DNA from: Bacillota bacterium
GTDB lineage: Bacteria > Bacillota > Limnochordia > Darwinibacteriales > DTU012
Direction: 5' to 3'
Assembly: GCA_012837335.1 (NCBI GenBank)
Contig: DURM01000050.1
Coordinates: forward strand, 1-40,711
DNA: 40,711 nt
Shown here: positions 5,772 through 16,922 of the stretch, in pieces
Numbering within the stretch: position 1 is the first letter of the stretch
Layout of the letters: each line of letters opens with the position of its first letter
The notes under the pieces: model-generated
Seen by the model: the letters and a program-made list of their open reading frames with translations, nothing else
The model's database searches: none
What the model was told of the DNA's origin: nothing
Program-made: the position numbers and the translations under genes

Positions 5772-5937
5772 GATTAATCCAGGATACCAGTAGAAAAACC
5801 TATTAAGAGATAGTTGTCTGTTGTGAAAATATGGCAGAAACTTCTTGAAAATGGAAGAATCTTACTATCTATGATCTAAGCAGTTGTATTTATCAGACTG
5901 CGGCTCTATCAAAAGACACGGAAAAGGAGATGAAAAA

Positions 5938-7233
5938 ATGAGTTTTCGCGGTAAGTCAATCGCACTAGTTTTGCTGTTGGTTGTTATGTTAAGTGGATGT
6001 CTGGGTGGCGGCGCAGGTAAATCTGGACCAAAATTCAATCTCGAAGTTTATGTGAGCGGACAGGGTTCAGTAAACCCCAAGGCTGGCGCCACCAGTATAC
6101 CCAGCGATACCTTGGTAACCATTGAAGCCATTCCCGCATCTGGGTGGGAATTCAGCTATTGGATCGGTGATGTCAGTGACCCTTATTCACCTAAAACAGA
6201 GATTATGATGGATGAGGATAAGTCAGTCACAGCTGTAATGTACAGCGAAGAGGAAAGCATATTTTTCGAGACCAAAGATAGTTCTGGAGCCATCGTACCA
6301 GGGGTATCGTTGATGTTAACGGACAGCACCGGAAGCGTTACTACTAACAGCAGAGGTTTTGCAGTTGTAAACACCACCGCAGCGAGTACCATTGTTACTG
6401 GCGTTATGGATGGTTTTGTGGTAGAACCGACTCCTTTGGTCGTGCAAAAAGGTGATCGCATTTCATTTACCCTTAGTGAGGGATCAGTACCTCTTGTGTT
6501 CACGGCCGAACTAACAATTAACCATACTGTCTTTAAGGATACAGCAAAGCTCAATCCATTTTCATCGGCTAAGATTCGCGAGGCGATGAACTGGCTGATT
6601 GATAGAGAGTATATTGTCAGCAGCATCTACACTGATCACAGTCCATTGACAACAGTAGTAGTGCCAGATACCTTTGAGTACGAGCTTATGCTCGATACGA
6701 TAGAGGCGCTGGAACAAAAGTACAGTTTTGATGCTGCCAAGGCTGAAGCGGTGATTCACGCCGAAATGGAGCAGCTTGGTGCTGAGTTAGTTGGTGGCAT
6801 CTGGCACTATAAGGATGAACCCGTGGAAGTAAAATTCCTCATCCGTGATGATGAAGTTCGCACGAAATTAGGCGATTATATAGCGGATCAGTTAAAGAAT
6901 GTTGGTTTTGCTGTTGAAAGGATCTACTTAAATGGAGGCCAAGCTGTCCCTATTTGGATGAATGGTGACCCAACAGATGGCAAGTGGAACTTGTATACCG
7001 GTGGTTGGATGGTCTCAAAAAATTATTTAAGCCATCACCTTCTGAAGCAGTTTCACACGCCAGGCAGCCTAGGGCGTTTGGGGGAAGCTTACACTCATAA
7101 TCCAGAGTTGATTGAGGTAGTAGATAGGTTGAATGGACCGTTTAATTCGGTGGAGGAGCGGAAGGAAGTGCTCAAACAAAGTCTTGAATTATCACTTCAA
7201 GATTCGGTCAGGGTTTGGTTGGTTTATCAGTAG
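5938..7233 (+). CDS. Lipoprotein: InlB-like repeat fused to partial family-5 solute-binding protein
   Basis: A 431-residue lipoprotein; the lipobox LSGC puts the lipidated Cys at about residue 21. Next come an InlB B-repeat-like domain (about 33-90: GQGSVNPKAG...VTIEAIPASGWEFSYW), a beta-sandwich-like region (about 95-170), then about 225 residues resembling only the central and C-terminal part of DppA/OppA-type binding proteins (NPFSSAKIREAMNWLIDREYIVSSIY...). The family is normally 500-600 residues, and the first lobe with its ligand-proximal N-terminus is missing. Start ATG 5938 is set by AAGGAGAT six bases upstream; the frame is open to 5884 but lacks a ribosome site there. No permease or ATPase is adjacent, so a peptide-transport role is doubtful. 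Confidence 0.8.
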   Translation: MSFRGKSIALVLLLVVMLSGCLGGGAGKSGPKFNLEVYVSGQGSVNPKAGATSIPSDTLVTIEAIPASGWEFSYWIGDVSDPYSPKTEIMMDEDKSVTAVMYSEEESIFFETKDSSGAIVPGVSLMLTDSTGSVTTNSRGFAVVNTTAASTIVTGVMDGFVVEPTPLVVQKGDRISFTLSEGSVPLVFTAELTINHTVFKDTAKLNPFSSAKIREAMNWLIDREYIVSSIYTDHSPLTTVVVPDTFEYELMLDTIEALEQKYSFDAAKAEAVIHAEMEQLGAELVGGIWHYKDEPVEVKFLIRDDEVRTKLGDYIADQLKNVGFAVERIYLNGGQAVPIWMNGDPTDGKWNLYTGGWMVSKNYLSHHLLKQFHTPGSLGRLGEAYTHNPELIEVVDRLNGPFNSVEERKEVLKQSLELSLQDSVRVWLVYQ

Positions 7234-7252: not shown

Positions 7253-7282
7253 AACCCCGGTGGCTGCAGCACCGGGGTTTTC
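7253..7282 (+). terminator. Intrinsic terminator
   Basis: The 10-bp perfect stem AACCCCGGTG with CACCGGGGTT and a 7-base loop is followed by TT, 20 bases after the lipoprotein stop. It separates that gene from the barrel gene. Confidence 0.85.
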
Positions 7283-7408
7283 GGTTACTATTTGGTCCCA
7301 GAGATTCCCTTAATTAGAAAATTAATCAGAACAGAAAGGATTGAGAATAGCGAGATCGAAGTAATAATCATGGTCACTCTTTACATAATTGAAAGCGAGG
7401 TGTAGTCC

Positions 7409-8122
7409 GTGGTAAGTACACGGAGCTTAGCTGCGGCACTGATTATTACGCTGCTGGTCTCAATTCAAGTTAGTGCGATCACGCCTGATCGCGGTTTGGA
7501 GAATCCTCTGTTATTATCTGAGATTGGTTATGGTTCGTTAGTTTATGGCAGTTTTAATTTGGACACACAGCATTACTTAGTATCCTACGCTGAGTATGAT
7601 GTATTTGCAGAAGGGCATGGTGCTTTTATTTACCAGGTCGGCCAGGATGATGAAGCCGATATTTTCTCCTTTGTGGGTACTAAGGAGCTGGATCATACTC
7701 AGGTGGGATTTACACTTCACAGATTTTCTAATCCGGTGTCCGAATGGCTGGTAGATCTGGGAGTTGCTTATACAGCTGGAGACCTGGTCGCTCGGGTAGC
7801 GGTCCACTCCATCCCATTAAGTGACATCGAACAGATTCACGAACGGAGCAGTATTTCAGTTGGCGCAGCTGTAAACTTAGCAGACCTAGTATTGGTCGGA
7901 CTCGATGCTCGGCTGCAGGAGCAGCAGTACGAGGGTTATGTGGTCTTGGAACCTCGACCTGACTTCACCCTGAGATTTAGTCTGCGCAGTAATGCCGACA
8001 AGTGGGATAAAGCTGGTTTCGATCTCTGGTACACTAGGGATCGCTTGATCGGGCATGTTGCTGTGGTGATGAGCCAGAATTGGCAGCGGGACATTCGTCT
8101 TGGTTTTGGAATTAGATTTTAA
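7409..8122 (+). CDS. Exported beta-rich protein, putative outer-membrane beta-barrel
   Basis: A 237-residue protein with an N-terminal signal peptide (LAAALIITLLVSIQVSA) and a body of alternating short beta segments with Gly/Tyr turns. It ends DIRLGFGIRF: Phe is last and Ile, Phe, Leu and Ile stand at -3, -5, -7 and -9. This is the pattern of the outer-membrane beta-signal read by BamA in diderm bacteria. GTG 7409 is preceded by GAGGTG at a 6-base spacing. I recognise no named family. The strand count (roughly 10-12) fits a small porin or OmpA-like barrel, but this is inference from pattern. Terminators on both sides indicate its own transcript. Confidence 0.6.
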   Translation: MVSTRSLAAALIITLLVSIQVSAITPDRGLENPLLLSEIGYGSLVYGSFNLDTQHYLVSYAEYDVFAEGHGAFIYQVGQDDEADIFSFVGTKELDHTQVGFTLHRFSNPVSEWLVDLGVAYTAGDLVARVAVHSIPLSDIEQIHERSSISVGAAVNLADLVLVGLDARLQEQQYEGYVVLEPRPDFTLRFSLRSNADKWDKAGFDLWYTRDRLIGHVAVVMSQNWQRDIRLGFGIRF

Positions 8123-8152
8123 AGCACCAACCCTCATGGTTGCTGCTTTTTT
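8121..8152 (+). terminator. Intrinsic terminator after barrel gene
   Basis: The stem AAAGCACCAACC with GGTTGCTGCTTT (one mismatch) and a 5-base loop runs into TTTTT. The first arm begins one base before the stop codon ends. Confidence 0.85.
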
Positions 8153-8326: not shown

Positions 8327-8653
8327 GTGTCGAGCGAAATTATTCAATCCGTTATGTCGGCTGAGGCACAGGCCGAAGCGATTCGCAAACAGGCCGAAAC
8401 CGAAGCTCAGGAAATAATCGCTGAAGCCTACAGCCAAGCCGATGAGCTGGAGAAACAGCTGATCCGGAATGCTGAAGCCGAAGCTGAGAAGATTATTGCC
8501 GATGCTCGCAGATCAGCTGAGGAAGCGACAGCCAAACTGCAGGTCGAAACTAAAGCTGAATGCGACAAGATCAGAGCCGAAGCAGCAGCTCGCCTAGACC
8601 AAGCCGTTGAACTTATTATAGAGAAGGTAGTGAACGCGCATGGCGGTCGTTAG
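8327..8653 (+). CDS. ntpF: V-type ATPase peripheral stalk subunit (NtpF / G-like)
   Basis: A 108-residue protein that is almost entirely charged alpha helix (EAQAEAIRKQAETEAQEIIAEAYSQADELEKQL...), with Ala/Glu heptad-like spacing. It pairs with subunit E to form the outer stalk that holds the catalytic head still. It is the first gene of an operon in the order F-I-K-E-C-G-A-B-D known from Enterococcus hirae ntp. GTG 8327 has GGAGG about eight bases upstream. Sequence alone is low-complexity coiled coil; the assignment rests on position and length. Confidence 0.85.
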   Translation: MSSEIIQSVMSAEAQAEAIRKQAETEAQEIIAEAYSQADELEKQLIRNAEAEAEKIIADARRSAEEATAKLQVETKAECDKIRAEAAARLDQAVELIIEKVVNAHGGR

Positions 8654-10610
8654 CATGAACAAGCTCATGCTGGTTGGTTTAAACGCCGATAAAAACCAGA
8701 TCCTGTCTGAACTGATGACTCTGGGCGTTGTTGAAATAACTTCCCACGATTTAACCAGTTCGGAATGGATATCCCAGTGGTCGCACCTCGTTACCGAAGA
8801 GGACCGCAGCGATGCCATTGAAGCTTTAAACGGCCAAATTGAGCAGACAGCAGCAGCTTTAGGAAGACTAGCCCGGTACAATGGCGGGAAAAAGCCTCTT
8901 TTTGCCGCTAAGAGATCAGTATCGGTCAGCGAATTTGCAGCAGTAGAAACTGAGCACGCAAGGTTACAGGAAATTGTCACGGATATCCTCCGTCTTGGCA
9001 GGGAGCAGCAGGAACTCCAGAATCAGCGCAACAAAGCTGAAAATCTGATTGCATCTCTTCAACCGTGGCAGCCATTAGATATTCCTCTTAATTTTAAAGG
9101 CACCGAATATACAAAAGTTGTACTAGGTGTTTTACCTCCATCTGTTGATGCAGAAAAAGTCAAATCTGAATTAACATCCGAAGTACCCGCAAGCTATCTA
9201 GAAGTAGTTACTCACGATAAATTCCAGCAGTATGTATTTTTAATCTATCATCACCAACTGCAGAGCGCAGTTGACAATGTGTTGAAAAACTTTGACTTTG
9301 TCCCGGTTAGTTTCAGCGGCATGACGGGAACCGCGGCGGAGCGAATTCGCGAAGCTGAGCAGGAAGTTAAAGCTCTTGACCGCGCGTATCAAGAAAAAGA
9401 AGCAGCGATAGCCGCTTATGCTGTGGAAAAATTTAATTTAGAGCTCTATTACGATTATCTCACCGGTCAGCGGGATAAAGAAACCGCGTTAGAAACTTTG
9501 ACCAATACTGAAAGCGTCTTTTTAATCGAAGGATGGCTGCCGGCAGAGCTCAGCGATGAGATCAAACGCCGCCTTAATGAGCAGTGGACCTGTGTTGTGG
9601 AAATCAGTGAACCGGCAGAGGACGAAGAGTTTCCCGTACTGCTGGAAAACAGCAGCCTCGGCGCCAGTGTTGAGGGCATTACCGCTATGTACGGGCTGCC
9701 AAACTGCCGCGAACTCGATCCCAACACCATAATGGCTCCCTTCTTCATCGGCTTTTTTGGTTTGATGCTGGGAGATGGCGGATACGGAGTGGTCATGACT
9801 CTTGCCGCCTTATTTGCCCTGTGGAAGTTCGATTTTGATGCGAATATGAAGAAATACGCCAAACTGGTTCTGTACTGCGGCATTGCCACTATGTTCTGGG
9901 GCTTGATGTTTGGCAGCTGGTTTGGAATCGAGTATTTCGGCGAAAGGCCCTTATGGCTTAATCCGACTAAAGAACCGGAAGAAATGCTCAAGTGGTCCCT
10001 CTTGTTTGGGGTACTCCATATCTATGTGGGCATTGCAGTTAGGGGAGTAAACCACATCCGCAACGGCAAGTACATCGATGTTTTATGGGATGTAGTGGCC
10101 TGGTATGTGCTGTTTACCGGATTTGTCTTTGTGGTGCTGCCTTTCGTGCCCGCCATGACCTTAGAGGATACCACCTTCTGGGTGGATTTGGGTAAAAAAA
10201 TGATGGCAGTTGGCGCAGTCGTTCTGATCTTAACTCAAGGGAGGGAGAATAAGGGCATAATATCCAAATTAGTGTCAGGTGTCGGCAGTCTCTATGACCT
10301 AGTGAGTTTCCTAAGCGATGTGCTGTCCTATTCCAGGTTGTTAGCCTTGGGTCTGGCTACTTCAATCATTGGTACCATTGTCAATCAAATTGCCACAATG
10401 GCCGGTCTGAACAACATTTTTAAGATATTAGTTGCAGCGGTAATCGCGATAATTGGCCACAGCCTGAATTTTGCAATCAACGCGCTCGGTGCTTATGTGC
10501 ACTCAAGCCGGCTGCAGTACATTGAGTTTTTCGGGAAGTTTTATCAAAGTGGAGGCAAGCCCTTCAAGCCTTTAAAGTACAAGACTAAGTATGTCAATTT
10601 AAAAAACTAG
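8640..10610 (+). CDS. ntpI: V-type ATPase subunit I (a subunit, ion channel half)
   Basis: A 656-residue subunit forming the stator half-channels next to the K ring. Residues 1-330 are a cytoplasmic dumbbell with coiled coil. Residues 350-630 hold the membrane helices, including MAPFFIGFFGLMLGDGGYG and the conserved LSYSRLLALGLA segment, whose Arg is the essential stator arginine of the family. It overlaps ntpF by 14 bases, so translation is probably coupled. ATG 8640 fits the GAGAAGG upstream; ATG 8655 is an alternative start five codons later. Confidence 0.95.
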   Translation: MAVVSMNKLMLVGLNADKNQILSELMTLGVVEITSHDLTSSEWISQWSHLVTEEDRSDAIEALNGQIEQTAAALGRLARYNGGKKPLFAAKRSVSVSEFAAVETEHARLQEIVTDILRLGREQQELQNQRNKAENLIASLQPWQPLDIPLNFKGTEYTKVVLGVLPPSVDAEKVKSELTSEVPASYLEVVTHDKFQQYVFLIYHHQLQSAVDNVLKNFDFVPVSFSGMTGTAAERIREAEQEVKALDRAYQEKEAAIAAYAVEKFNLELYYDYLTGQRDKETALETLTNTESVFLIEGWLPAELSDEIKRRLNEQWTCVVEISEPAEDEEFPVLLENSSLGASVEGITAMYGLPNCRELDPNTIMAPFFIGFFGLMLGDGGYGVVMTLAALFALWKFDFDANMKKYAKLVLYCGIATMFWGLMFGSWFGIEYFGERPLWLNPTKEPEEMLKWSLLFGVLHIYVGIAVRGVNHIRNGKYIDVLWDVVAWYVLFTGFVFVVLPFVPAMTLEDTTFWVDLGKKMMAVGAVVLILTQGRENKGIISKLVSGVGSLYDLVSFLSDVLSYSRLLALGLATSIIGTIVNQIATMAGLNNIFKILVAAVIAIIGHSLNFAINALGAYVHSSRLQYIEFFGKFYQSGGKPFKPLKYKTKYVNLKN

Positions 10611-10622
10611 GAGGTTGTGAAT

Positions 10623-11096
10623 ATGGAATTCTTACAGGGAGATCTCATTGGTAACATTTTAGCAGTTTTGGGAGCAGTATTTGCCTTTATTATTACGGGA
10701 ATCGGCTCAGCCAGAGCAGTTGGTGCCGGTGGTCAAGCAGGTGCCGGTGTCTTGACTGAAGACCAGGATAAGTTTGTTCCGGTCATGATTCTCCAGGCTC
10801 TGCCCAGTACTCAAAACATTTACGGTTTCGTTATCGCGTTCTTGATTATCGGTAAGATCATTATCGGTGAACCTCTTGATTTCGGTGCAGGTTTGACCCT
10901 CTTCTTGGCATCACTGCCAGTTGGTATTGTCGGCTATGTGTCAGCAGTTCTGCAGGGTCGCGTGTCTGTAGCCGGTATTCACATGGTAGCTAAACAGGCT
11001 GAAGGTATGATTAAGGGTGTCGTACTGGCGCTGATGGTTGAGATGTTTGCGATTCTCTCATTGATCATCTCGATTCTGATCATTGGTAAGGCTTAA
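10623..11096 (+). CDS. ntpK: V-type ATPase subunit K (proteolipid ring), Na+-type ligands
   Basis: A 157-residue four-helix double-hairpin proteolipid of the rotor ring. The Na+-ligand set of E. hirae NtpK (Leu61, Thr64, Gln65, Gln110, Glu139) is matched by Leu60, Thr63 and Gln64 (ALPSTQNIYG), Gln111 (AVLQGRVSVAG) and Glu140 (LMVEMFAIL). The enzyme therefore most likely moves Na+ rather than H+. As in NtpK, only the second hairpin carries the carboxylate. ATG 10623 is chosen over GTG 10617 because AGGAGG (10609-10614) lies eight bases before it; that site overlaps the ntpI stop codon. Confidence 0.95.
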   Translation: MEFLQGDLIGNILAVLGAVFAFIITGIGSARAVGAGGQAGAGVLTEDQDKFVPVMILQALPSTQNIYGFVIAFLIIGKIIIGEPLDFGAGLTLFLASLPVGIVGYVSAVLQGRVSVAGIHMVAKQAEGMIKGVVLALMVEMFAILSLIISILIIGKA

Positions 11097-11122
11097 TATA
11101 CGCATAAGGAAGTGTCCTGAAG

Positions 11123-11722
11123 ATGACAGGAGTAGAGCAACTAACAAGTAAAATTATAGAAGATGCAAAACTAAGAGCTGCTGAAAGAAAAAAGCAAGCT
11201 GAGGAGGAAAAAGCAGCGATTCTGGAGCAGACCCGGGAAAGAGCGCAGGTAGAGTGCGATAAAATCACCGCTGAAGCTAAAGCGCGCGGTGAAGAACTCT
11301 ACAACCGCTTGATTTCTGTTGCCCAGCTCAATGCCCGCAAAGAAAAGCTGCAGGCGAAGCAGGATGTGATTGCCTCCGCTTTTGACCAAGCTCTGGCCAA
11401 GCTCCGCTCCCTTCCGGATGATCGGTATTTTGATCTGATCAAAGACTTAATCGTCCAGGGCAGCACAACGGGCTCAGAGCAGATTATTTTATCCGAAGCT
11501 GACCACAAGCGCCTGCCGGAGGGTTTTTTGGAGCAAGTTAATGCTGTGGTTAAAGAGAAGGGTCTTTCCGGTTCACTTAAACTGGCGCAGGAGACTGGGC
11601 CGATTCAGGGTGGAGTGATTCTCAAGGCCGGAAATATTACGGTCAATTACACCTTCGAAGCGCTGCTGAAGCAGAATTACGACCAACTTGCCATGGAAGT
11701 AGCCGGTTTGTTATTCTCTTAA
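11123..11722 (+). CDS. ntpE: V-type ATPase subunit E (peripheral stalk)
   Basis: A 199-residue stalk subunit: a long N-terminal charged helix (about 1-90) and a compact C-terminal domain (about 95-199) that docks on the A/B head. Length and placement after ntpK match the family. The ribosome site AAGGAAGTG is weak and about 10 bases away, so coupled translation is possible. Confidence 0.93.
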   Translation: MTGVEQLTSKIIEDAKLRAAERKKQAEEEKAAILEQTRERAQVECDKITAEAKARGEELYNRLISVAQLNARKEKLQAKQDVIASAFDQALAKLRSLPDDRYFDLIKDLIVQGSTTGSEQIILSEADHKRLPEGFLEQVNAVVKEKGLSGSLKLAQETGPIQGGVILKAGNITVNYTFEALLKQNYDQLAMEVAGLLFS

Positions 11723-11743
11723 TTTGAAAATGAGGGAAGCGAA

Positions 11744-12754
11744 ATGATACAGTCTATGGATACCAAATATGCATATGCGGTTGGGCGCATTCGTGCCATT
11801 GAGCAGCGGATGCTGAGCCGCGCTGCGCTGGAGCGGATGATTGAAGCCGATTCAGCCGAGGATGCGTTTAGAATCTTAAGGGAGGCGAATTATGGCTTTT
11901 CAGCCGGTGAGAGCACTGCTTTAAGCTACGAGCAGGTTCTTAATGAAGAGCTGGTTAAAGTCTATAATTTGCTGATGGAGATTGCTCCGGATCCGAAAGC
12001 GTTTGATCTGTTTTTTATCAAGAACGACTACCACAACTTCAAAGTATTTTTGAAGGCAGAACTCTCTAATCAGGAAATGGCAGAGCAGTATTTAGCCGAG
12101 CCCAGCTTATTTAATCCGGATCAAGTAGCGGCGATGTTTAGAGAGCGGGATTTCTCCAATCTGCCACAATCGATGCAGGCGGCGATTGATGCCTGTTTCG
12201 ATGCTTTCAGCAAAACAGCGGATCCCCAGCTGATTGACATCATTCTTGACCAGGCACTCCACAGCGATATGCTGGCGCTTGCCAAACAACTGAAGAACTC
12301 ATTTGTGAGCCAGATTGTAAGTTCTACGCTTGACCTGGTTAATTTGAAGATTGTGCTCCGCACAAAGCTGATCAATCAAGATTGGGAGTTTTTGGAGCGC
12401 TTCTTGATTCCCGGCGGCAGTTTTGGCTCCAAGTTTTACCAAGGGCTTTTGGAGCTGGAATTTGACCAGTTTCCCCCAGCGTATGAGGAAACCCCATACC
12501 ATCAGCTCTTGGCAGATAGTATGCGGAAATTTAAAGCTTCCAACAGTCTCGCCGGATTCGAAATGCTCTGCGATAACTACCTGATGGATCTGCTTAAGAA
12601 AACCAAGTTTGCCATATTTGGTATCGAACCGCTGGTTACATACTTGCTGGCGAAAGAGCTGGAAGTGAAAAATGTCCGGATTATTATGGTAGGTAAGATA
12701 AACCAATTAGCACAAGATGTCATCAGGGAAAGGCTGAGGGAAACCTATGTATAA
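11744..12754 (+). CDS. ntpC: V-type ATPase subunit C (d subunit, central stalk-ring adaptor)
   Basis: A 336-residue helical funnel protein linking the K ring to the D/F central shaft. It carries the family's opening TKYAYAVGRIRAIEQRMLS and the closing EVKNVRIIMVGKINQLAQDVIRERLRETYV, in which the KN(V/I)RI element is typical. AGGGAAG is five bases before ATG 11744. Its 3' end overlaps the next gene by eight bases. Confidence 0.95.
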   Translation: MIQSMDTKYAYAVGRIRAIEQRMLSRAALERMIEADSAEDAFRILREANYGFSAGESTALSYEQVLNEELVKVYNLLMEIAPDPKAFDLFFIKNDYHNFKVFLKAELSNQEMAEQYLAEPSLFNPDQVAAMFRERDFSNLPQSMQAAIDACFDAFSKTADPQLIDIILDQALHSDMLALAKQLKNSFVSQIVSSTLDLVNLKIVLRTKLINQDWEFLERFLIPGGSFGSKFYQGLLELEFDQFPPAYEETPYHQLLADSMRKFKASNSLAGFEMLCDNYLMDLLKKTKFAIFGIEPLVTYLLAKELEVKNVRIIMVGKINQLAQDVIRERLRETYV

Positions 12755-13067
12755 AATCGGTGTAATCGGTGATAAGGACAGTATTCTCGGCTTTAAGGCC
12801 ATCGGGATGACTGTATTTCCAGTTGAAGATTCGTCCGCAGCCAAAGCAGCCCTGGAAGAACTAGCCCGCGAGAAGTACGCTGTTGTGTACATCACTGAGC
12901 AGATGGCGCAGGAGATTGGCGAAACCATTGATAAGTACAAGGACGAAATGGTACCGGCCATCATTTTGATACCCAGTAGTCAAGGTTCGCTGGGGATTGG
13001 CATGCGCAATTTAAGAAGCTCAGCCGAACGGGCGATAGGAGCAGACATCCTGTTCAGAGACGAATAG
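12747..13067 (+). CDS. ntpG: V-type ATPase subunit F (NtpG, central stalk)
   Basis: A 106-residue Rossmann-like subunit that binds subunit D in the rotating shaft. MYKIGVIGDKDSILGFKAIGMTVFPV is the family hallmark (GD-DSxxGFxxxG), followed by YAVVYITEQMAQEIGETI. It is named ntpG in E. hirae but is called F in most databases. The start overlaps ntpC by eight bases, which suggests translational coupling. Confidence 0.95.
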   Translation: MYKIGVIGDKDSILGFKAIGMTVFPVEDSSAAKAALEELAREKYAVVYITEQMAQEIGETIDKYKDEMVPAIILIPSSQGSLGIGMRNLRSSAERAIGADILFRDE

Positions 13068-13099
13068 GCGTAATATGGTGCGAAAGAGGGTAGGCGATT

Positions 13100-14869
13100 A
13101 TGAGTCACGGAAGAATTGTCAAGGTATCAGGTCCCTTGGTTGTTGCCGAAGGTATGCAGGATGCCAATATGTTTGACGTGGTTCGCGTAAGCGAACAGCG
13201 TCTGATTGGTGAAGTCTTAGAGATGCGGGGCGATCGGGCCTCGATTCAGGTATACGAAGAAACAGCTGGTTTGGGACCGGGCGAACCTGTTTACTCAACT
13301 GGGGCACCATTAAGTGTGGAGCTAGGCCCCGGTTTAATCGGCACAATCTTCGATGGAATTCAGCGTCCTTTAGAGACCATCCGCCGGATGGTGGGCAGCA
13401 ACATCACTAGAGGAATTGACGTAGATTCCCTTGAACGGAATAAACGCTGGAAGTTCGAGCCGGTTGTTGAACCTGGAGCCAAGGTTACTGCTGGAGATAT
13501 TATCGGGAAAGTGCAGGAAACCGAGATTGTGGAGCACCGGATCATGGTGCCACCTCGTGTAGCCGGTACAATTGAAGAAATCTACTCCGGTGAGTTTACA
13601 ATTGCTGAAACTGTAGCCAAGCTGAGAACGGACAGCGGTGAATTAGTAGAACTAACGATGATGCAGAAATGGCCGGTTCGCGTCGGCCGTCCCTATAAAG
13701 AAAAATTGGCTCCAACCGAGCCTTTAATTACCGGACAGCGGGTAATCGACACCCTCTTTCCCATTGCTAAAGGTGGAGTGGCTGCTGTTCCGGGACCTTT
13801 TGGAAGCGGTAAGACAGTGGTGCAGCACCAGCTGGCGAAATGGGCTGACGCTGATATCGTAGTGTACATCGGCTGCGGAGAGCGGGGCAATGAAATGACT
13901 GATGTATTAAACGAGTTCCCGCAGCTGAAAGATCCGCGCACCGGCGAATCGCTCATGAAGCGGACCGTCCTAATTGCCAATACATCAGATATGCCGGTAG
14001 CGGCCCGGGAAGCTTCGATCTACACCGGAATTACCATCGCTGAGTATTTCCGGGATATGGGCTACAGCGTAGCATTAATGGCTGATTCCACTTCCCGCTG
14101 GGCAGAGGCACTGCGGGAAATGTCAGGACGCCTGGAAGAAATGCCTGGTGAAGAAGGTTACCCGGCGTATTTGGCCTCCCGCTTAGCTCAGTTCTATGAA
14201 CGAGCAGGCAGAGTAATCAGTCTCGGCACAGAAGGCCGCGAAGGGGCTTTAACTGCAATCGGAGCGGTTTCTCCGCCGGGCGGTGACTTGTCGGAGCCGG
14301 TAACCCAGGCAACCTTGAGAATTGTGAAGGTTTTCTGGGGCTTGGATTCAAGCCTGGCGTACCGCCGCCACTTCCCGGCAATCAACTGGCTGAACAGCTA
14401 TTCCTTGTATCTGGATCAGCTGGAGCAGTGGCAGAGTGAAAGTATTGCCAGAGATTGGCCGAAGATCCGCCGGGATATTATGCGGATCCTTCAGGAAGAA
14501 GCGGAACTTGAGGAAATCGTGCGCCTGGTAGGTATTGACTCCCTGTCGCCGCTGGAGCGGGTGACCTTAGAAGCAGCAAGGTCAATCAGGGAAGACTACC
14601 TCCATCAGAACTCTTTCCACGATGAGGATACTTATACATCGCTTCAGAAGCAGTATCGGATGCTGAAGCTGATTATGGGTTATTACTACAAAGCAGTAGA
14701 AGCGGTAGATGCGGGTATTTCAATTAACAAGATCTTTGCGATTCCGGTCAGAGAGCGAATTGGCAGAGCTAAGTATGTTCCGGAAGCGCAGATGGATCAA
14801 GTCTTTGGAGAAATTGAAACTGAGCTGAATCAGCAGTTTGAAGCACTGGCAGCAGAGGAGGTGGGCTAG
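13100..14869 (+). CDS. ntpA: V-type ATPase catalytic subunit A
   Basis: A 589-residue catalytic subunit that binds and hydrolyses ATP. The P-loop GPFGSGKT is at 232-239, with the A-specific bulge region before it ([12 protein letters not shown], about 155-170). [15 protein letters not shown] carries the catalytic Glu, and [27 protein letters not shown] is intact. All catalytic motifs are present at normal length. The preceding gap is 32 bases, with AGGG before ATG 13100. Confidence 0.97.
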
Positions 14870-14870
14870 G

Positions 14871-16250
14871 ATGCTGAAAGAATATAAAACCATTTCGGAA
14901 ATCGCAGGTCCTTTGATGCTTGTGCAAAATGTTGAAGGCGTAAAATACGAGGAATTAGGCGAGATTGAGCTGCCAAACGGTGATATCCGCTTGTGTAAAG
15001 TGCTGGAAGTTGATGAGGGCAATGCCCTGGTGCAGCTGTTTGAAAGCTCAGCGGGAATTAACGTTGCTCAAAGTAAGGTGCGCTTTTTAGGCAAGGGTAC
15101 TGAGCTTCCTGTTTCCATAGATATGCTGGGGAGAGTTTTCACAGGCTTGGGACGCCCGGCCGACGGAGGACCGGAAATTATTCCGGAAGCGCGCCTGGAT
15201 ATTAACGGTATTCCGATCAACCCGGCAGCTAGGGACTATCCTTCCGAGTTTATTCAAACCGGAGTTTCGGCGATTGACGGACTGAACACCTTAGTTCGGG
15301 GCCAAAAACTGCCGATCTTTTCCGGATCCGGACTGCCCCACGCCCAGCTGGCCGCCCAGATTGCCCGTCAATCAAAGGTATTAGATGACCAGAGCAAATT
15401 TGCGGTAGTATTCGCAGCGATTGGAATTACCTTCGAAGAAGCGGATTTCTTCATCAGCGACTTTATCCGCACCGGCGCGATTGATCGGTCGGTGGTGTTT
15501 ATTAACCTAGCTGATGACCCGCCGATTGAGCGGATTTCTACACCGCGGATGGCCTTAACAGCTGCGGAATACCTGGCGTTTGAAAAGGATATGCATGTGC
15601 TGGTAATCCTTACCGATATTACCAACTATGCGGAAGCGCTGCGGGAGGTTTCAGCAGCGAGGAAAGAGGTTCCGGGACGGAGAGGTTATCCTGGATATTT
15701 GTATACCGACTTAGCCACAATTTATGAAAGAGCAGGCCGCAAGAAGGACAGCAATGGCAGTATCACTTTAATTCCGATATTGACCATGCCTGAGGATGAC
15801 AAGACCCATCCGGTTCCGGACTTAACAGGCTACATTACCGAAGGTCAGATTATCCTCAGCCGGGAACTGCACCGCAAGGGCATTGAGCCGCCCATCGATG
15901 TGCTGCCATCCCTGTCAAGGTTGAAAGACAAGGGTATCGGCGCAGGCAAGACGCGCGAAGATCACGCGGACGTGATGAACCAGCTCTTTGCCGCTTATGC
16001 TAGTGGTAAAGAGGCTAAGGAATTAGCGGTAATCCTTGGCGAAGCCGCGTTGACCGAGATGGATAAGCTCTACGCTGAGTTTGCGGATCAGTTCGAGGAA
16101 AGATATGTTTCCCAAGGATTCCACGAGGATAGAACTATTGAGGAAACAATGGAGCTGGGTTGGGAACTCTTGAGAATTCTGCCAAGAGCTGAGCTTAAGC
16201 GGATTCGCGATGAATATCTAGATAAGTATCTCCAAAGAGGAGAGGATTAG
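14871..16250 (+). CDS. ntpB: V-type ATPase regulatory subunit B
   Basis: A 459-residue nucleotide-site partner of subunit A, alternating with it in the head. It starts [26 protein letters not shown] as the family does. The P-loop position reads [16 protein letters not shown] with no GKT, as expected for non-catalytic B. The C-terminus is normal. ATG 14871 is chosen because AGAGGAGGTG lies eight bases upstream; the frame extends to TTG 14838, inside ntpA, without family similarity. One base separates it from ntpA. Confidence 0.97.
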
Positions 16251-16922
16251 ATGGCTGTTCTCAATGTAAATCCCACTCGGATGGAGCTGTCAAAGCTGAA
16301 GAAGCGGCTGACAGTAGCCCGCAGAGGCCATAAGCTCTTAAAAGATAAACGCGATGAGTTGATGAAGATCTTTCTGGAGGTTGTCAGGAAGAACAAGGAG
16401 ATGCGGGAAAAGGTTGAAAAGCTTTTAACCGAATCCTATCAGAGTTTCTTGGTAGCCAGAGCGGTCATGTCTTCAGAAGTGCTCGAGGCAGCGCTGATGG
16501 TTCCCAAGCAGAGGGTAGAGCTGGATGTAGATACCGTCAATCTGATGAGTGTTCACGTCCCAAGGTTTAAGTACACAGAAATTGGCAGCGATGATGAAAA
16601 TATCTACCCCTATGGATTTGCCTCGACTTCCAGTGATTTAGATCGCTCCATGCAGATTTTAGCGTCTGCTCTGCCATTTATGCTGGAGCTGGCGGAAAGT
16701 GAGAAATCAGCGCAGCTGCTAGCCCAGGAAATTGAGAAAACCAGAAGACGAGTAAACGCCCTAGAGTATGTGCTCATTCCTCAGCTTGAAGAAACAATCA
16801 AGTACATTACCATGAAGCTTGAGGAAAATGAGCGGGGCAACATCACCCGCCTAATGAAGGTTAAGGACATGATGCTGGAGCAGACGTATAAATACCGCGA
16901 GAGATTAAAGACGCAGAGTTGA
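16251..16922 (+). CDS. ntpD: V-type ATPase subunit D (central rotor shaft)
   Basis: A 223-residue long antiparallel coiled-coil rotor axle. N-terminal [33 protein letters not shown] and C-terminal [33 protein letters not shown] are the diagnostic segments. ATG 16251 follows the ntpB stop directly, with AAGAGGAGAGG inside the end of ntpB. It is the last gene of the operon; the small H and J subunits of E. hirae are not present here. Confidence 0.96.

Follow-up and report, generated by a model that had tools for sequence, protein, structure and literature searches.

Which role could an outer-membrane-type beta-barrel have in a Firmicute, and with which partners would it have evolved? The question is raised by one gene in a 40,711-nucleotide stretch of DNA from a member of the class Limnochordia (contig DURM01000050.1; referred to as the window). 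Protein routes to the cell surface are poorly known in diderm Firmicutes, lineages that matter for the question of an outer membrane in the ancestor of the phylum. We report that the main interest of the gene lies in its operon context and not in the C-terminal ending that first drew attention to it, and we weigh what this context suggests about the function of its product.

A compact barrel gene with an outer-membrane-type ending

The gene, which we assign to a compact subfamily of small outer-membrane barrels with a predicted FadL/PorV-like fold, covers positions 7409..8122 on the forward strand, starts with GTG and encodes 237 aa. The coordinates agree with those of an earlier note on this DNA, which had described an exported protein with aromatic or hydrophobic residues at positions -1, -3, -5, -7 and -9 from its end. 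The ending is as described: in the ORF translation, and in a scan of endings, the C-terminal beta-signal IRLGFGIRF (8093..8119, forward strand) has F at -1, I at -3, F at -5, L at -7 and I at -9. An aromatic residue at -1 together with bulky hydrophobic residues at -3, -5, -7 and -9 distinguishes the barrel ORF from all others on the two strands of the window (one of 106 ORFs, minimum length 60 aa) and has a probability of 0.0026 for random draws from the mature protein. Barrel homologs keep the ending (GLGFRF, GIGFRF, GVGFQF, GAGFKF), the final residue being L instead of F in five of 12. Export is suggested by a putative signal peptide with a hydrophobic N-terminus, read by eye at about residues 1-23 (...QVSA/ITPDR; 7409..7477, forward strand), where the model described below has pLDDT values <50 at residues 9-21.

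Predicted fold

The AlphaFold2 model of the protein, built from an eight-row alignment (pLDDT 85.4, pTM 0.76), predicts 14 transmembrane strands between residues 43 and 236 (7535..8116, forward strand). These are preceded by a predicted N-terminal plug or hatch region, residues 24-42 (7478..7534, forward strand), with two short helices in the model (26-30 and 33-38) and a conserved N32-P33 in the alignment. The beta-barrel fold anticipated in the earlier note is thus predicted; its guess of 8-12 strands is not, and a barrel of that size was rejected on the 14 strands of the model.

The top rows of the VIA-align comparison are the FadL-family channels TodX, TbuX and FadL (Z from 22.7 to about 20), the best being TodX/FadL 6z38 (Z 22.7, rmsd 2.5, 207 aligned residues, model residues 24-237). 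PorV structures align as well (8gl6_F, Z 20.1, rmsd 3.0, 211 aligned residues; 6h3i_F, Z 19.8), as does OmpG (Z 18.4), and among the Foldseek matches listed for the model nearly all are transmembrane beta-barrels. From the alignment with FadL and PorV barrels, which covers 204-211 residues with Z of about 20-23, the 14-stranded barrel is probably closed. The model points to a barrel of the FadL/PorV type, with a difference between FadL and PorV rows that is small and singles out neither one.

Among 12 compact barrels P33 is invariant and N32 is present in 11, while the third residue of the motif varies and is not Ala. Model residue 24 aligns to FadL chain residue 25, where the VIA-align ranges start; taking these range ends to be joined without a gap, N32-P33 would fall on FadL N33-P34, the motif positions given in the entry titles of FadL mutants among the matches.

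Outer membrane of the host lineage

The genome to which the window belongs (G000) encodes a BamA of 581 aa (POTRA E 4e-22, Omp85 E 3e-45; G000:C76) adjoined by TamB, and also a TolC-type OEP. Moreover, 39 of the 40 genomes examined (own genome and relatives) have Omp85. The signal peptide (read by eye), the C-terminal beta-signal and BamA in the genome are together as for an outer-membrane protein inserted by BAM. A search for BamA had been proposed in the earlier note, together with a diderm placement of the organism; the BamA homolog was found, with both POTRA and Omp85 domains, and the diderm reading is supported by the class (Limnochordia), by BamA, TamB and the TolC-type OEP, and by the predicted barrel fold. 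An outer membrane of Limnochordia, seen by electron microscopy, has already been published (PMC11456536). LpxC was detected in none of ten genomes (own genome and nine relatives; controls positive), and its absence with BamA present suggests an outer membrane without standard LPS in the family of the window organism.

A five-gene operon in Limnochordia

In relatives with an intact flank the barrel gene is the last of five, the order being secreted subunit 1, secreted subunit 2, an Ig-like chaperone-like protein, a secretin and the barrel; the earlier note does not mention this setting. The secretin directly upstream of the barrel has 405-422 aa (Pfam Secretin E 1e-44) and carries Secretin and Secretin_N domains; at 176.7 bits (L044) and 172.3 bits (L086) it scores below the GspD equivalog cut-off of 351 bits. 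The chaperone-like protein has at least 508 aa with matches to fn3_5, WxLIP_PGBD or NPCBM_assoc (fn3_5 above cut-off in L044 and L102), and this multi-domain Ig-like protein resembles WxLIP and chaperone domains. The two secreted subunits gave no family match. A pilin fold for subunit 2 was considered and rejected (model pLDDT 62; best rows EcpA, Z 7.3, and BPSL1626, Z 7.0, below trust level). In one locus (L057) the subunit genes are preceded by a BTAD regulator, and among the ORFs neighbouring the operon no ATPase or pseudopilin was seen by eye.

To offset the ascertainment of a search with the barrel, a profile census was seeded on the chaperone-like protein, independently of the barrel. 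The chaperone-like protein scores >200 bits in 21 of 72 class genomes (next best match 96 bits), and a secretin gene adjoins its gene in all 21, including one shrunk to 127 aa (G031), one frameshifted near its end (G048) and one cut by a contig end (G043). The barrel comes next after the secretin in 19 of the 20 census genomes with sequence beyond it (G043 was dropped from this tally; three of the 19 barrels, in G016, G044 and G067, are cut by contig ends), G042 being the exception. The gene order is also found in one-contig genomes (G039, G064 and G065), so cultured strains may exist. No account of the five-gene operon was found in the open literature searched, judged mostly by titles and the starts of abstracts, and the set is apparently undescribed.

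ORFs resembling a histidine kinase and a LuxR-type response regulator were seen by eye after the operon in several genomes (L085 1355-2890, L088 6966-8497 and L095 6127-7662).

Sequence relatives and family assignment

A barrel profile search gave matches in 16 of 72 class genomes, and the barrel is present in eight of 40 genomes of relatives (own included). In more distant genomes of the class the barrel at the same position has 286-308 aa and the motif NPAA (invariant in five of five) or NPAG. Comparison of the profiles of the compact and NPA barrel groups gave E 3.4e-5 and 4.9e-5, with probabilities of 72% and 68%. A search for direct sequence relatives among solved structures with the barrel profile gave two matches (E 0.31 and 1.4), both unrelated, and such relatives were therefore discarded.

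The window protein has no Pfam or NCBIfam match, PorV_fam and FadL included. Matches to NCBIfam PorV_fam (NF033709; curated cut-off 90 bits) were obtained for the operon-position barrel L089 of a class genome (E 1.8e-4) and for barrel L103 from outside the class (G157, E 5.6e-8), both below the 90-bit cut-off, the best relative scoring 32.7 bits. Because these scores lie below the cut-off, we place the protein among compact FadL/PorV-type barrels and outside the curated PorV family. The suggestion of a new small barrel family consequently holds in part: it fits the lack of Pfam and NCBIfam matches, and it is weakened by the predicted FadL/PorV fold and by the existence of relatives.

Erosion of the locus in the window and in other genomes

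In the window the barrel gene is preceded by a remnant of the secretin C-terminus, 39 codons and a stop (7286..7405, forward strand), recognised by alignment with the secretins that precede the barrel in relatives. GAGGTG, the likely ribosome-binding site (RBS) of the barrel (7397..7402, forward strand), lies six bases before the start codon and makes up the last two sense codons of the remnant; an RBS of the barrel inside the last secretin codons is seen in several loci. Specifically, the 21 bases GAAAGCGAGGTGTAGTCCGTG, reading through the barrel start codon, are all identical to those of relative L002. Of 19 positions that are invariant in nine intact secretins, the remnant keeps 12 and has seven changed, and the window barrel keeps 15 of its 16 invariant positions; the difference in constraint is marginal (Fisher P 0.047; 0.057 and 0.062 with matched genomes). 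Conserved residues persist in the barrel although only 39 codons of the secretin are left, and it therefore probably still has a job.

The position of the secretin is occupied by a lipoprotein gene (5884..7233, forward strand; InlB-type repeat and the C-terminal part only of an SBP_bac_5 domain). Between it and the remnant is a terminator-like hairpin, CCCCGGTG-GCTGCAG-CACCGGGG followed by TTTT (7255..7277, forward strand; by eye), which overlaps a terminator-scan site at 7271-7285. A second scan site, also a terminator-like hairpin, lies just 3' of the barrel gene (8128..8142, forward strand), with two sites found in total versus 1.1 expected by chance. Downstream follows an unrelated V-type ATPase-like operon (8327..16922, forward strand; only its first two genes were family-scanned). 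The barrel stands here as an apparently retained orphan, the other operon partners not being beside it. Other secretins of the same genome are those of the Tad locus (C19) and of a type B locus (C10; see below).

Among the 16 barrel-bearing class genomes the upstream secretin is intact, as far as the sequence goes, in ten (G005, G007, G012, G014, G016, G050, G051, G052, G053 and G055); the locus is eroded in five, and in one (G058, dropped from the upstream tally) it is cut by a contig end. Apart from the remnant in the window (G000), the eroded loci have a shrunken secretin (G031), a frameshifted secretin (G048), a secretin fused to a subunit gene (G028), and a barrel reduced to about 64 codons (G045). 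MAG assembly errors may account for the G048 frameshift, the G028 fusion and the join in the window. In G031 (G031:C2; L043 7672-8055) the secretin is cut in frame to a signal peptide and the last ~100 residues (127 aa), and the chaperone-like and barrel genes beside it are intact. Such eroded loci amount to natural deletions in which the role of the barrel on its own could be studied.

Loci outside the class

In a sample of the phylum the chaperone-like profile matched 63 of 398 genomes at 1e-10 (own genome and class included). Five loci outside the class, picked from strong matches and not a random sample, were examined. Three have a barrel after the secretin: a compact barrel resembling that of the window (G110), the PorV_fam-matching barrel of G157 mentioned above, and an NPAA barrel (G241). 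The remaining two (G281 and G208) have none. The chaperone-secretin pair without a barrel in G042, G281 and G208 implies that the barrel is not always needed. In G241 a tandem second chaperone-like gene and a truncated 363-aa secretin-like gene are located beside the complete operon (L104 4865-7640).

Candidate role of the barrel

We give an even chance to the reading that the barrel is a FadL/PorV-type partner of the secretin, derived from the five-gene operon, that would collect or anchor surface subunits and is orphaned in the window organism. The subunits would enter the periplasm by Sec and be held there by the Ig-like chaperone-like protein, the secretin ring would serve as their outer-membrane gate, and the barrel beside it might collect or anchor the emerging subunits, as PorV/PorP-like barrels do for the type IX translocon. 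The collector role is drawn from this analogy. In the type IX system the lateral opening of SprA is capped by PorV, which receives cargo (PMC9251779). PorV and the PorP-like proteins, described as FadL-family barrels of 14 strands, bind cargo and have been proposed as its collectors at SprA (PMC9143113). In the window organism the barrel may serve by itself as an anchor or channel in the outer membrane, or may work with another secretin of the genome.

The fold by itself would also suit an ordinary small solute channel of FadL or OmpG type, for hydrophobic or other molecules, that sits in the operon by chance. FadL-type folds also act as channels for hydrophobic molecules, which counts against the collector reading; the three proteins in the top structural rows are all channels with OmpG close behind, and persistence without a secretin in the window suits a self-sufficient channel. 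We nevertheless regard a chance placement as unlikely, given that the barrel directly follows the secretin in the 19 of 20 class genomes and three of five loci outside the class, and that the sequence matches obtained point to PorV and not to FadL. A partnership with the secretin could also be structural, the barrel assembling or stabilising the secretin in the manner of a pilotin and collecting no cargo. This would agree with the strict adjacency, with the overlap of the barrel RBS and the secretin codons in several loci, and with the short type B secretins in five loci, which also precede a protein with a barrel-like ending. To our knowledge, however, known pilotins are lipoproteins and not barrels, and the survival of the barrel where the secretin is shrunken or gone makes such a function rather improbable.

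A further alternative concerns the window organism: its gene may look intact and yet be a decaying relic left after loss of the operon. The near-complete loss of the secretin with its changed invariant positions would fit, as would the absence of the barrel from all four other genomes of the genus and its reduction in G045. However, the window barrel has preserved its ORF, its beta-signal, its RBS and 15 of 16 invariant positions, its distances to relatives (0.57-0.75) only slightly exceed those of L002 (0.55-0.70), and the three loci with damaged secretins that were found by the barrel search (window, G031 and G048) all have a whole barrel; we accordingly have little inclination to see it as a relic.

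Comparison with known systems

The partner of a secretin proposed here would be most like PorV and PorP/SprF of the type IX system, which share the (predicted) 14-stranded barrel, in part the N-terminal plug with an NP(A) motif (N-P in the compact group, full NPA in operon relatives), the weak PorV_fam matches of the operon relatives and, as the operon suggests for the window family, the position as partner of an outer-membrane translocon. The window family differs in having a secretin and not SprA as neighbour, in phylum and in scoring below the curated PorV cut-off, and the window barrel has about 214 mature residues versus 345-367 for the matched PorV chains. SprA_N was matched in none of the 72 class genomes, but the control genomes gave no match either. 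FadL and TodX reach the highest Z of the structural comparison (22.7), in an alignment that runs from the plug through the last strand, but have 360-444 residues, and the window protein has no FadL sequence match; we know of no FadL/TodX channel with a secretin as neighbour.

Chaperone-usher pili likewise combine secreted subunits, an Ig-like chaperone(-like) protein and an outer-membrane pore, and the best fold rows of subunit 2 (untrusted) are fimbrial subunits. The pore of the operon is, however, a secretin, and the usher (PF00577) was found in none of the 72 class genomes (E. coli control positive). Type II, type IV pilus and Tad systems share the Secretin and Secretin_N domains of the gene before the barrel, but the score of the operon secretin falls well short of the GspD and PilQ cut-offs, and the Tad locus of the genome lies elsewhere with a secretin of its own.

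A secretin, a chaperone-like protein, a PorV-like barrel and secreted subunits make up a defined and testable candidate for surface export. Tentatively, and with some doubt, we raise the possibility that they form an undescribed outer-membrane export pathway of diderm Firmicutes, with a stand-alone short secretin pore, a WxLIP-type Ig-like periplasmic chaperone, a collecting or anchoring FadL/PorV-type barrel and no dedicated operon ATPase, from which the window barrel would have been freed and repurposed. Such a pathway would parallel chaperone-usher and type IX logic alike, with a secretin as its base. If true, FadL-type barrels would have a second translocon as partner, one unrelated to SprA.

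The type B set (L033, L035, L036, L038 and L042) consists of a secretin of ~390-405 aa and, directly after it, a 405-562-aa protein with a barrel-like ending; L033 belongs to the same genome as the window (G000:C10). The N-terminus of the L038 partner gives a match to the STN domain of secretins slightly below cut-off (E 3.4e-6), which would fit a secretin-like N-terminal part fused to a putative barrel. Homology between the compact barrel and the type B partner proteins is not claimed (profile comparison probability 5%).

Other features of the window

Rfam and tRNA scans of the window gave no match, and the promoter scan was uninformative (three sites versus 2.5 expected). Several homologs of the lipoprotein encoded at 5884..7233 are present in the same genome. 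Synteny of this gene was of no help for dating, since the genes that follow its nearest homolog within the genus (G001, 47%) are different ones. Finally, two adjacent leucine-rich-repeat ORFs at positions 2-1300, one of 107 aa truncated at the start of the window and one of 322 aa, are perhaps one interrupted gene.
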